Shown piece after piece: positions 59,057 to 63,750 of a stretch of 64,000 nucleotides of DNA (position 1 is the first letter of the stretch; every line of letters starts with the position of its first letter). Source of the stretch: Serpentinicella alkaliphila (GTDB lineage Bacteria; Bacillota; Clostridia; Peptostreptococcales; Natronincolaceae). The translations under genes were made by a program, and so were the position numbers. The notes under the pieces were generated by a model. That model ran no database searches. It was not told the origin of the DNA and saw only the letters and a list, made by a program, of their open reading frames with translations. The stretch spans positions 2,754,502 to 2,818,501 of the forward strand of contig NZ_CP058648.1 in assembly GCF_018141405.1 (NCBI RefSeq). The letters are read 5' to 3'.

Positions 59057-59929
59057 ATGAATAATCGCTATGAACTTAATAAAAATTTAGCACAAATGCT
59101 TAAGGGTGGAGTAATTATGGACGTAACTACACCTGAACAGGCTCGTATCGCTGAAGAAGCTGGGGCTTGTGCTGTTATGGCTTTAGAAAGAATTCCAGCT
59201 GATATTAGGGCTGCAGGTGGAGTTTCAAGAATGAGTGATCCTAAGATGATTAAAAGTATTCAGGAGGCAGTAACTATACCAGTTATGGCAAAAGTACGTA
59301 TTGGCCATTTTGCTGAGGCCCAAATACTTCAGGCTATAGAAATAGATTATATCGATGAAAGTGAAGTCTTATCACCAGCAGATGACCTCTTTCATATCGA
59401 TAAAAGCAAATTTAATGTTCCATTTGTTTGCGGTGCTAAGGACTTAGGGGAAGCACTTAGAAGAATTAACGAAGGGGCCTCTATGATCCGTACTAAAGGG
59501 GAACCAGGAACGGGGGATATAATTCAGGCAGTACGTCACATTAGACTAATTAATCAACAAATCAGACGTTTACAAAATTTAAGGGAAGATGAATTATATC
59601 ATGCAGCAAAAGAATTACAAGTACCTTATGATCTAGCTAAATATGTACACATTAATGGTAAACTTCCAGTTGTAAACTTCGCTGCAGGCGGAGTTGCAAC
59701 TCCAGCAGATGCAGCTTTGATGATGCAACTAGGTGCAGAGGGAGTATTCGTTGGATCAGGTATTTTTAAATCAGGTAATCCAGCTAAACGAGCTCAAGCA
59801 ATTGTTAAGGCAGTTACTAATTTTAATAATCCTCAAATACTAGCTGAACTTTCGGAGGACTTGGGTGAAGCAATGGTTGGTATTAACGAACAGGAAATTG
59901 AATTATTAATGGCTCAGAGAGGTATATAA
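59057..59929 (+). CDS. pdxS: Pyridoxal 5'-phosphate synthase subunit PdxS
   Basis: Synthase subunit that condenses ribose 5-phosphate, glyceraldehyde 3-phosphate and ammonia to PLP. 290 residues, TIM barrel. [20 protein letters not shown] near 17-36 (first active-site region), [30 protein letters not shown] and the [13 protein letters not shown] phosphate site near 230-242. The stop overlaps the pdxT start by one base (TAATG). Confidence 0.98.
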
Positions 59930-60513
59930 TGAAAACAATTGGAGTCTTAGCAGTTCAAGGTGCTTTTATAGAGCATATACACACACTTAATAAATTAAAT
60001 GTAAACTGTGTTGAAATAAGGGAAAAGTCAGATTTAACTAATAATAAACTCGATGGAATCATACTACCCGGTGGAGAAAGTACCGTAATCGGAAAATTAA
60101 TTAGGGAACTGGATATATTTAATCCTTTAAGACAATCTATATTAGATGGTTTGCCGGTTTTAGGAACTTGTGCTGGGTTAATACTACTTGCTAAAGATAT
60201 CGTTAATGATGAAAATACTTATTTAGGTACTATGGATATCAAAGTCAGGAGAAATGCCTATGGTCGACAGCTTGGAAGCTTTAATACCTCCGGAAAATTT
60301 GGTAGTTTAAATGACGTACCAATGACATTTATTAGGGCCCCTTTAATAGAATCTGTTTCAGAGAACATTGAAATACTATCTCAAGTTAATAATCATATTG
60401 TTGCTGCAAAACAAGACAATATGGTAGTTACATCCTTTCATCCTGAACTAACTGACGATATTAGAATTCATAATTTCTTCTTAGATTTAATAGATAAAAA
60501 GCATAATATATAA
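59929..60513 (+). CDS. pdxT: PLP synthase glutaminase subunit PdxT
   Basis: Class I glutamine amidotransferase that feeds ammonia to PdxS. 194 residues. LPGGESTVIGKL near 45-56, nucleophile cysteine in LGTCAGLILLA near 77-87, and the His-Glu pair in TSFHPELTDD near 170-179. The three residues of the catalytic triad are present. Confidence 0.97.
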   Translation: MKTIGVLAVQGAFIEHIHTLNKLNVNCVEIREKSDLTNNKLDGIILPGGESTVIGKLIRELDIFNPLRQSILDGLPVLGTCAGLILLAKDIVNDENTYLGTMDIKVRRNAYGRQLGSFNTSGKFGSLNDVPMTFIRAPLIESVSENIEILSQVNNHIVAAKQDNMVVTSFHPELTDDIRIHNFFLDLIDKKHNI

Positions 60514-60539
60514 TAATTTTTGAGATAATGTTTTTAAAC

Positions 60540-60568
60540 AGAGAAAGCACCACATGGTGCTTTCTCTT
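60540..60568. terminator. Terminator between pdxT and the zinc-ribbon peptides
   Basis: AGAGAAAGCACC and GGTGCTTTCTCT form a 12-bp stem with a 4-base loop. It serves pdxT (plus) and probably the convergent peptide gene (minus). Confidence 0.75.
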
Positions 60569-60616
60569 ATTAAATGTATATTAATCATAATCATATGTAT
60601 ATAATTGTTTAATGTT

Positions 60617-60736
60617 CTACATGTATTCCCCACAATATGGGCAACGTTCAACACTATCGTCTATATATTCTCCGCAGTATGGACAACTAATTTCCCTCTT
60701 TGAACTGATGTTTAGCAGTTTAAGCAAGATTTTCAT
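60617..60736 (-). CDS. Zinc-ribbon micro-protein A (39 residues)
   Basis: Starts MKILLKLLNISSKREI (amphipathic helix) and continues CPYCGEYIDDSVERCPYCG, with cysteines at 18, 21, 32 and 35: a two-knuckle zinc ribbon. ATG at 60734-60736 follows GGAAGGAGGATTTACAAT, a very strong ribosome-binding site. It is one of three tandem paralogues with identical spacing of all four cysteines. Function is unknown. The helix could sit on the membrane or bind a partner, with the ribbon as an adapter. Confidence 0.8.
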   Translation of the reverse strand: MKILLKLLNISSKREISCPYCGEYIDDSVERCPYCGEYM

Positions 60737-60855
60737 ATTGTAAATCCTCCTTCCTACTTAAATATGTGTCTATTAGTTTTACTTGTTGTAATACTATTAT
60801 ATGCATGCACCTCTGGTCTGAACACCTTTCCGTGTAAATTTGTAAAATTTTTTTC

Positions 60856-60984
60856 TTATTTAGCTCTTACTTGAGCACCACAAAAAGGGCATTTTTTGAC
60901 TTCATTGCTTATATATTCTCCACATACTGGACAGCTAATAATACTCATTGATCGGATTTTCAATAGTGTTAGTAAGGATTTCAT
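60856..60984 (-). CDS. Zinc-ribbon micro-protein B (42 residues)
   Basis: Starts MKSLLTLLKIRSMSII and continues CPVCGEYISNEVKKCPFCG, with cysteines at 18, 21, 32 and 35 and a basic end QVRAK. ATG at 60982-60984 follows AAAGGAGAATTTAA. It is the most divergent of the three tandem copies and has a 3-residue longer tail. Confidence 0.8.
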   Translation of the reverse strand: MKSLLTLLKIRSMSIISCPVCGEYISNEVKKCPFCGAQVRAK

Positions 60985-61042
60985 TTAAATTCTCCTTTCC
61001 TACTTAAACGGTTGACACATCTAATGTGTGAATACCTCCGTT

Positions 61043-61077
61043 AAAAAGGAAAGCACCTATTGGCGCTTTTCCTTTTA
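61043..61077 (-). terminator. Terminator after zinc-ribbon micro-protein C
   Basis: AAAAGGAAAGC(A)CC and GG(C)GCTTTTCCTTTT form a long stem with one mismatch, then five T residues on the minus strand. It lies between copies C and B, so these are separate transcripts or B receives only read-through. Confidence 0.7.
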
Positions 61078-61124
61078 CCTATATAGTTATTTCTAATGAC
61101 TAATCATAAGTATTACTGCTATAA

Positions 61125-61244
61125 CTAAATAAATTCACCACAGTGAGGACAATAAGTTACATCTGCACCTATATACTCACCACATACTGGACAATTACCC
61201 ACCTTCACAGAACGAATATTCAGCAGTCTAAGCAAGATTTTCAT
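61125..61244 (-). CDS. Zinc-ribbon micro-protein C (39 residues)
   Basis: Starts MKILLRLLNIRSVKVGN and continues CPVCGEYIGADVTYCPHCG, with cysteines at 18, 21, 32 and 35. ATG at 61242-61244 follows AGGGAGGATTTAAGT. It is close to copy A, and its upstream region also resembles that of A: GCATATTATAG here and GCATATAATAG before A, then AAGTAAAA, GACAC and TTTAAGTAGGA. Confidence 0.8.
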   Translation of the reverse strand: MKILLRLLNIRSVKVGNCPVCGEYIGADVTYCPHCGEFI

Positions 61245-61354
61245 ACTTAAATCCTCCCTCCTACTTAAAATTAGTGTCCGTAATTATATATATTTTACTT
61301 ACTTCTATAATATGCTTGAGTAGTACATAAGTTGTGTAAATTTTCAAAAAATTT

Positions 61355-61386
61355 AAAAAGCCTACCGATAAAGGTAGACTTTTTAA
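61355..61386 (-). terminator. Terminator after deoC
   Basis: AAAAAG, CTACC / GGTAG and CTTTTT form the stem with one mismatch. The minus strand then has TTTTT and a further T run. Confidence 0.8.
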
Positions 61387-61406
61387 ATATTATTTTAATA
61401 TTAATT

Positions 61407-62075
61407 TTAATAGCCATCATTTGTGCTTTGAATTCCTTTAACTATATCAACAGATGAGCTAGCTCCAAGTCTTGTAGCACCCGCAGCAATTAGCTCCCGA
61501 GCTGTTTTAATATCTCTCACACCACCAGAAGCTTTAACTCCTAGTTCAGGACCTACTGTTTCTCTCATCAGTTTTATATCCTCAACAGTTGCCCCACCAG
61601 TACTGAAACCTGTAGAGGTTTTTACAAAATGTGCACCTGCCTGTTTTGATAATTGACAAGCTAAAATCTTCTCTTGTTTATTAAGTAAAGATGTTTCAAT
61701 TATTACTTTAACTATGGCCTTTTCATTAGCAGCATTAACTACTGACTGAATATCTCTTAATACTAATTCATTATTTCCTTCTCTAAGAGCACCTATATTA
61801 ATAACCATATCTATTTCGTTTGCACCATTATCTATAGCATTAGTAGTTTCGAACACTTTCGTTTCTGTTGTCATGGCCCCCAGCGGAAAACCAACAACAG
61901 CTGTTACTTTTACATCAGTTTCACTCAACTGTTCTGCAACAAATGGTACATTCGAACCATTTACACATACGGAATAAAATCCAAATTCTATAGCCTCATC
62001 ACAAATTTTTTTAATATCATTTTTAGTGACCTCAGGCTTTAATAGTGTATGATCAATATATTTCGCTATATTCAT
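61407..62075 (-). CDS. deoC: Deoxyribose-phosphate aldolase
   Basis: Splits 2-deoxyribose 5-phosphate into acetaldehyde and glyceraldehyde 3-phosphate. 222 residues. [12 protein letters not shown] at 6-17, the Schiff-base lysine Lys152 in [10 protein letters not shown], and [12 protein letters not shown] near 182-193. It starts 13 bases after pduL and is cotranscribed with it. Confidence 0.97.
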
Positions 62076-62745: not shown

Positions 62746-63750
62746 CTAGAAATTTTTAAATAAATAATCCATATTAACTGTTTCATCATGTTCATTTTTA
62801 CGTTTAATAGTTGTTAAAGTCATACTAACCAATCCCATTATCAAAGCAAATACAGCAACCCCCATGTAATACGTTCTGAAAGGAACATAAAATGAAGCTA
62901 AAAACAAATAGCCAAAAAGAAAGAGATAAGACTTTATTTTATTTGGAGAAAGGGCAATGTCTTTGTATTCCTTAAGCTTCCTTTCCTTTTTACTAATTTT
63001 ATTTTCTATTAGCTCATCAATTTCTTCATCCTTTGGGAACATTCCGTTTTTCTCAATTAATTTTAAAAATGTATCTTTATTAACTAGCATTAATTTGTAT
63101 TTACCTGTTAATTGTTCAATAAATGTATAACAGTCTTTTGTAAAATCTGATGTCGTTATTACTATACCCTTTTTTACTTCATTTTTAACTAAACTTTGTA
63201 TCATTTCTTTAATATCTTTTACTTCTACATCTAAGTCATTTTTATATGAAAGAAATAAAATATTTAATTTTTCATTATTTAGATTGGCACTGTATAATAT
63301 AGCTTTATTTTGAATATAGCTAAAACTTAAATTTGAAAAATTCATTTTTACTAGTAGCTCTGTGACATAGTTCTTTAGCTCTTCTTGAGTTTTATTCATT
63401 ATTTCCTTATATACCTTTTGACTAGCTATGTATCTTCTTTTTTTTACTCTTCCCTTTTCTATCTTCTTATTTCTTATTTCAATTGACATAATATGCATTA
63501 AAGTGAGAATAATTATAGAAGCCATTAGAGCAATATATATGTTTCTAAATTCAATAAACAATACACTAAATATTCCAACAAAAATTAACATTCTACCTAA
63601 AAAATAATCAATAATCTTAGCACCTACCCCTTTAGTATCATTTTTAGTATCTAAGTAGTATGCTTTAAACCTTCTACTGGAGCTTCTACTTTTGCTATAA
63701 CCTCTAACCTGCCCAGTTAAAAATTGAAAGAAAGCATTTATGTTTTTCAT
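62746..63750 (-). CDS. Membrane protein with Mrr-like restriction-endonuclease-fold domain
   Basis: 334 residues. Basic, Ser/Arg-rich N-terminus (residues 13-30), two membrane helices (about 50-90), a cytoplasmic domain (about 105-265) and two C-terminal helices (about 275-320). The cytoplasmic part resembles the Mrr_cat/NERD-like fold: ELKNYVTELLVKMNF, LFLSYKNDLDVEVKDIKEMIQSLVKNE and KKGIVITTSDFTKDCYTFIEQ. The QxK-type catalytic motif is not clear, so it may not cut DNA. Function is unknown. It is read alone toward pduL. ATG follows GGAGGTTGTTAAC. Confidence 0.65.
   Translation of the reverse strand: MKNINAFFQFLTGQVRGYSKSRSSSRRFKAYYLDTKNDTKGVGAKIIDYFLGRMLIFVGIFSVLFIEFRNIYIALMASIIILTLMHIMSIEIRNKKIEKGRVKKRRYIASQKVYKEIMNKTQEELKNYVTELLVKMNFSNLSFSYIQNKAILYSANLNNEKLNILFLSYKNDLDVEVKDIKEMIQSLVKNEVKKGIVITTSDFTKDCYTFIEQLTGKYKLMLVNKDTFLKLIEKNGMFPKDEEIDELIENKISKKERKLKEYKDIALSPNKIKSYLFLFGYLFLASFYVPFRTYYMGVAVFALIMGLVSMTLTTIKRKNEHDETVNMDYLFKNF

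Follow-up and report, generated by a model that had tools for sequence, protein, structure and literature searches.

Tandem zinc-ribbon micro-proteins in Serpentinicella alkaliphila with putative sporulation promoter elements

Three short tandem frames of the spore-forming clostridium Serpentinicella alkaliphila, designated C, B and A and lying on the minus strand between deoC and the convergent pdxT within the 64,000-nucleotide stretch analysed here (the window, from contig NZ_CP058648.1), are real, selected coding sequences. Judged from sequence, their products are stand-alone zinc-ribbon micro-proteins with a short hydrophobic N-terminal tail. They appear as orphan members of the already described C(P)XCG micro-protein kind, with a link to sporulation that we infer from promoter-like boxes. 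Little work has been done on bacterial one-domain zinc-finger micro-proteins, which annotation readily overlooks, and a tandem family of orphans whose promoter elements can be read is a concrete, testable case. These putative elements would tie a micro-protein family to a developmental programme.

Three paralogous genes and their products

The frames have the lengths, strong ribosome-binding sites and residues that an initial annotation had listed for them (Table 1). A GGAG-type ribosome-binding site stands ahead of each copy, and the internal alignment of the peptides is gapless, with 20 invariant columns (M1, K2, L4, L5, L7, L8, I10, S12, C18, P19, C21, G22, E23, Y24, I25, V29, C32, P33, C35 and G36) and all four cysteines in register, as had been claimed. 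Pairwise dN/dS values are 0.32 (A-B), 0.17 (A-C) and 0.20 (B-C), and none of 4000 random-substitution nulls produced fewer amino-acid changes than are seen among the copies. Real genes had been expected to show homologous frames in related genomes and purifying selection on the cysteines; such frames were not found, but purifying selection between the paralogs shows that A, B and C are genes. Comparing paralogs with one another can confirm a gene that has no homologs. Sixty dinucleotide-shuffled 9-kb stretches yielded no short frame with CPxCG-x9-11-CPxCG preceded by a ribosome-binding site. In 864 kb of the genome, there is one other short frame (28-70 aa) with a ribosome-binding site and two similarly spaced CxxC pairs, which we take to resemble ribosomal protein S14.

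Table 1. Features of the locus, in window coordinates
Feature	Position	Strand	Sequence or property	Basis
mrr-like gene	62746-63750	(-)	334-aa protein; Mrr-type nuclease domain and hydrophobic segments; adjoins pduL-deoC	PF04471
deoC	61407-62075			
Terminator, deoC to C	61351-61388	(-)	hairpin	
Putative sigma-K promoter of C	61306-61332	(-)	AC-N16-CATATTATA	consensus of PMC3789822
Leader element of C	61259-61269	(-)	TTTAAGTAGGA; adjoins ribosome-binding site	
22-nt leader and ribosome-binding site of C	61248-61269			
Copy C	61125-61244	(-)	MKILLRLLNIRSVKVGNCPVCGEYIGADVTYCPHCGEFI, 39 aa; first in transcription order	PF13240 over cut-off; dN/dS
Terminator, C to B	61044-61080	(-)	-16.8 kcal/mol, z -4.4	
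Inverted repeat in B leader	61015-61029	(-)	ACACATTAGATGTGT	
Leader element of B	60998-61008	(-)	TTTAAGTAGGA	
22-nt leader and ribosome-binding site of B	60987-61008			
Copy B	60856-60984	(-)	MKSLLTLLKIRSMSIISCPVCGEYISNEVKKCPFCGAQVRAK, 42 aa	PF13240 over cut-off
Putative sigma-E/K -10 box of A	60795-60803	(-)	CATATAATA after a G; AC absent at -35	
Leader element of A	60752-60762	(-)	TTTAAGTAGGA	
22-nt leader and ribosome-binding site of A	60741-60762			
Copy A	60617-60736	(-)	MKILLKLLNISSKREISCPYCGEYIDDSVERCPYCGEYM, 39 aa	PF13248 and PF13240 over cut-off
Hairpin after A	60533-60575	(-)	-23 kcal/mol, z -7.8; weak T-run; between A and convergent pdxT	
pdxT	59929-60513	(+)		

Residues of about 15-38 in each peptide match the Pfam zinc ribbons PF13248 (Zn_ribbon_3) or PF13240 (Zn_Ribbon_1) above the curated cut-offs, with scores of 34.9 against 27 for A (PF13248) and of 26.0 and 25.4 against 25 for B and C, respectively (PF13240). 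Searches of NCBIfam and PHROGs gave weak zinc-ribbon matches only, and a search of Rfam returned nothing. In an AlphaFold2 model, which rests on three sequences only, the mean pLDDT of 10-residue blocks is 81-91 over residues 11-39, and the first ten residues are poorly modelled, with a pLDDT of about 50 at the N-terminus. The two CPxCG knuckles would clamp one metal ion. Zinc binding through the four cysteines is not assured for A, B and C; nine of 14 purified Haloferax C(P)XCG proteins bound zinc and the other five were zinc-free (PMC11241148).

The first 16 residues had been described as a hydrophobic/basic amphipathic helix. This is not supported, with no N-terminal helix in the three-sequence model and none of the helical moments of A, B and C above those of shuffles. 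A membrane-binding micro-protein with an N-terminal amphipathic helix was considered as a candidate and is unsupported by the same two results. A helix induced by a membrane or a partner may form in the N-terminus. Of the proposed family of helix-plus-zinc-ribbon adapters, it is the paralogous zinc-ribbon micro-proteins that stand, by Pfam and by alignment, and the helix that lacks support.

Duplicated units and promoter-like boxes

The elements GCATATwATAG, AAGTAAAA, GACAC and TTTAAGTAGGA are common to the upstream regions of A and C, as first reported, and TTTAAGTAGGA is moreover present in B. This 11-nt leader is identical in all three copies and lies directly upstream of the ribosome-binding site; a 17-nt motif containing it has no exact match elsewhere in the 3.26-Mb genome. 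The terminator reported between C and B is seen as a hairpin, and the hairpins after A and after C are similar in sequence. Because promoter region, gene and hairpin all resemble each other, the whole unit was probably duplicated between A and C, which bears out the earlier view of duplicated, separately terminated units; the upstream similarity of A and C taken alone is not significant (local alignment test, p = 0.18). Tandem duplication would have raised the number of zinc-ribbon genes.

The 22-nt segment of leader and ribosome-binding site is better conserved (95% between A and C) than much of the coding sequence, and synonymous differences between A and C are 0.43 in the first 17 codons and 0.91 in the remainder. 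Perhaps selection acts here on translation initiation or RNA-level control. The B leader carries a perfect inverted repeat, absent from A and C, which is a possible operator or small hairpin.

GCATATwATAG matches the -10 box of mother-cell sporulation sigma-E/K promoters, a match that the initial annotation had missed. It contains CATATTAT in C and CATATAAT in A. In C. difficile, the two sigK promoters have been reported to carry these sequences as their -10 boxes, and AC is found at -35 in sigma-K promoters and ATA in sigma-E promoters (PMC3789822). The full sigma-K arrangement (-35 AC, -10 CATAnnnT, spacing of about 16 nt) is found at C, with AC exactly 16 nt upstream of the -10 box; A has the -10 only and B has neither. 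No sigma-70-type promoter was called at the -10 boxes of A and C. If the sporulation promoter is true, a start site is expected slightly downstream of GCATATTATA ahead of C.

Sigma-K is encoded in this genome (TIGR02846 over cut-off), with CATATTAT upstream of its gene. Just three sites in the genome match AC-N15-GCATATWATA: one ahead of C, one whose first base lies 45 nt ahead of the start of a Tyr/His/Pro-rich cupin gene, and one with no close clear gene start. A second Tyr/His/Pro-rich cupin-type gene has AC-N17-CATACACTA upstream. Within the 864-kb sample of the genome used for promoter statistics, AC-N16-CATA[ACT][AT]AT lies upstream of four genes of at least 60 aa, which are a SafA/ExsA-type coat assembly gene (TIGR02899), the first of these cupin genes (coat-like), a PRK06851-type ATPase gene and a gene that is antiporter-subunit-like by sequence appearance only. 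The -10 box alone precedes genes for YyaC (TIGR02841 over cut-off), a Met/Tyr/Pro-rich coat-like protein, a LysM-deacetylase and a Pfam 'Gate' protein, which is presumably SpmA-like. The strict -10 matches in the sample number 31, about six of them sporulation-looking and many non-sporulation (raw, uncontrolled counts), and at -35 several dinucleotides other than AC are found just as often. Based on the boxes, the arrangement at coat genes and the encoded sigma-K, mother-cell expression is likely for C and plausible for A; it is not proven, since the -10 box also precedes many ordinary genes.

The two Tyr/His/Pro-rich genes (L136 and L123) are paralogs whose products look like spore coat proteins, and a sigma-K-like promoter stands a short way ahead of each; the cupin domain (PF07883) was tested in the L136 copy.

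Possible roles

We favour the explanation that these are lineage-specific zinc-ribbon micro-proteins, of which A and C are made in the mother cell during sporulation and are perhaps coat-associated, and we consider it evenly poised between true and false. Sigma-K would transcribe C and A in the mother cell from the GCATATwATA -10 boxes, with sigma-E as an alternative for A, and B would be expressed by read-through or an unrecognised promoter. As a weaker step, the products would be small mother-cell proteins that become part of the spore coat or of the machinery that assembles it, the zinc knuckle offering a rigid surface for protein binding and the hydrophobic tail a segment for docking; a coat destination is just the natural guess for late mother-cell proteins. 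The most specific version, that lineage-specific and undescribed zinc-ribbon micro-proteins made under sigma-K are incorporated in the spore coat as tandemly duplicated, metal-clamped mini-scaffolds, is put forward tentatively, the balance being somewhat against it. If true, the coat of this lineage would hold such scaffolds. Other very short sporulation proteins expressed in the mother cell are SpoVM, CmpA and SscA, none of which, to our knowledge, has a zinc ribbon. A, B and C would be like them in being very short and, as we infer, mother-cell expressed.

It is possible, but rather unlikely, that the three are vegetative regulatory zinc-finger micro-proteins, serving as adapters for nucleic acid or a partner protein and expressed from sigma-A promoters under a stress or nutrient condition. 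The similarity in GCATATwATAG would then be an inherited sigma-A -10, and CATATAAT does contain TATAAT and CATATTAT TATTAT; the kind is also known in regulation (PMC2253796, PMC6562870), and the 11-nt leader common to the three genes suggests co-regulation. However, no sigma-A -35 was called at the boxes of A and C, whereas C has a correctly spaced sigma-K -35, and the neighbours pdxST, deoC and pduL carry no functional hint.

The initial annotation had also suggested binding to the membrane surface or the ribosome, for which only weak, non-significant likenesses were seen. The peptides resemble Nop10 (E 0.0075) and bL32 (E 0.084) weakly at the profile level, and a structure search, with no match at E <= 0.001, gave a weak fold likeness to ribosomal zinc ribbons and RanBP2-type fingers. 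These likenesses would agree with ribosome- or RNA-associated zinc ribbons acting as dormancy or biogenesis factors, but a generic CxxC zinc ribbon would give equally weak matches, the copies are not strongly basic and late mother-cell expression would suit a dormancy factor ill, which makes such a role improbable. Short tandem paralogs with a conserved N-terminus and cysteines might also be precursors of a RiPP (a modified peptide) or small toxins of type I, but we give this hardly any credence: from ychF to the mrr-like gene no maturase, transporter or immunity gene was recognised, the hydrophobic stretch has too few residues to span a membrane, and the cysteine region matches zinc-ribbon profiles.

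Distribution and comparison with known micro-proteins

A profile of the three sequences found no full-length match outside their own genome in about 1,300 genome look-ups from family to phylum (20 family, 98 relatives, 394 order, 391 class and 398 phylum genomes, in overlapping sets with differing E-value limits). Elsewhere the profile matched just the zinc-ribbon portion of longer proteins, or short proteins that are unrelated. In the searched relatives, the zinc-ribbon domain nearly always lies within a longer frame, whereas in A, B and C it makes up most of the protein. Plasmids and phages gave the zinc-ribbon part or weak matches only, and in viral contigs there was nothing beyond two chance matches in another frame. 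A strict motif search of 84,980 species had zero matches; a relaxed one gave nine stretches, three with a pattern-fitting frame (Planctomyces, 63 aa; Omnitrophota, 373 aa; Heimdallarchaeum, 73 aa), all unconvincing as homologs. All the searches leave the family an orphan. It could be genus-wide; the searched genomes included no second member of the genus, and the collections may omit records close to the window. Relatives keep pduL-deoC, with no zinc-ribbon frame found within 1.5 kb of deoC; the three genes look as if they had been added in this lineage. The mrr-like gene adjoins pduL-deoC in many relatives, and this order is kept in many genomes of the same family.

The initial annotation knew of no such family, which is right for the full-length sequence, but the kind has already been described. 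One-domain C(P)XCG zinc-finger micro-proteins, defined as having fewer than 70 aa and two C(P)XCG motifs, have been studied in Haloferax (PMC6562870, PMC11241148), and A, B and C fall within this definition. Deletion mutants of the haloarchaeal proteins show phenotypes (PMC6562870), and the kind is said to occur in bacteria too, at lower ratios. Like A, B and C, Haloferax HVO_2753 and HVO_0758 are stand-alone, below 70 aa, and pair two C(P)XCG motifs with a short N-terminal extension, whereas Halobacterium Brz has one C(P)XCG motif and a CxxxH. The present proteins differ from the haloarchaeal ones in being bacterial, in forming three tandem paralogs and in their possible sporulation promoters; the similarity is shown only in the motif.

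Two genera of the same family share another cassette (L041:1324-2431 and L043:1563-2670), which consists of an approximately 80-aa gene, a 52-aa gene, a 36-aa zinc-ribbon micro-protein and a gene that is RadC-like by sequence appearance. The 36-aa proteins have two CxxCG knuckles, as in A, B and C, but lack the MKxLLxLLxI N-terminus, are single-copy and have other neighbours, including the RadC-like gene.
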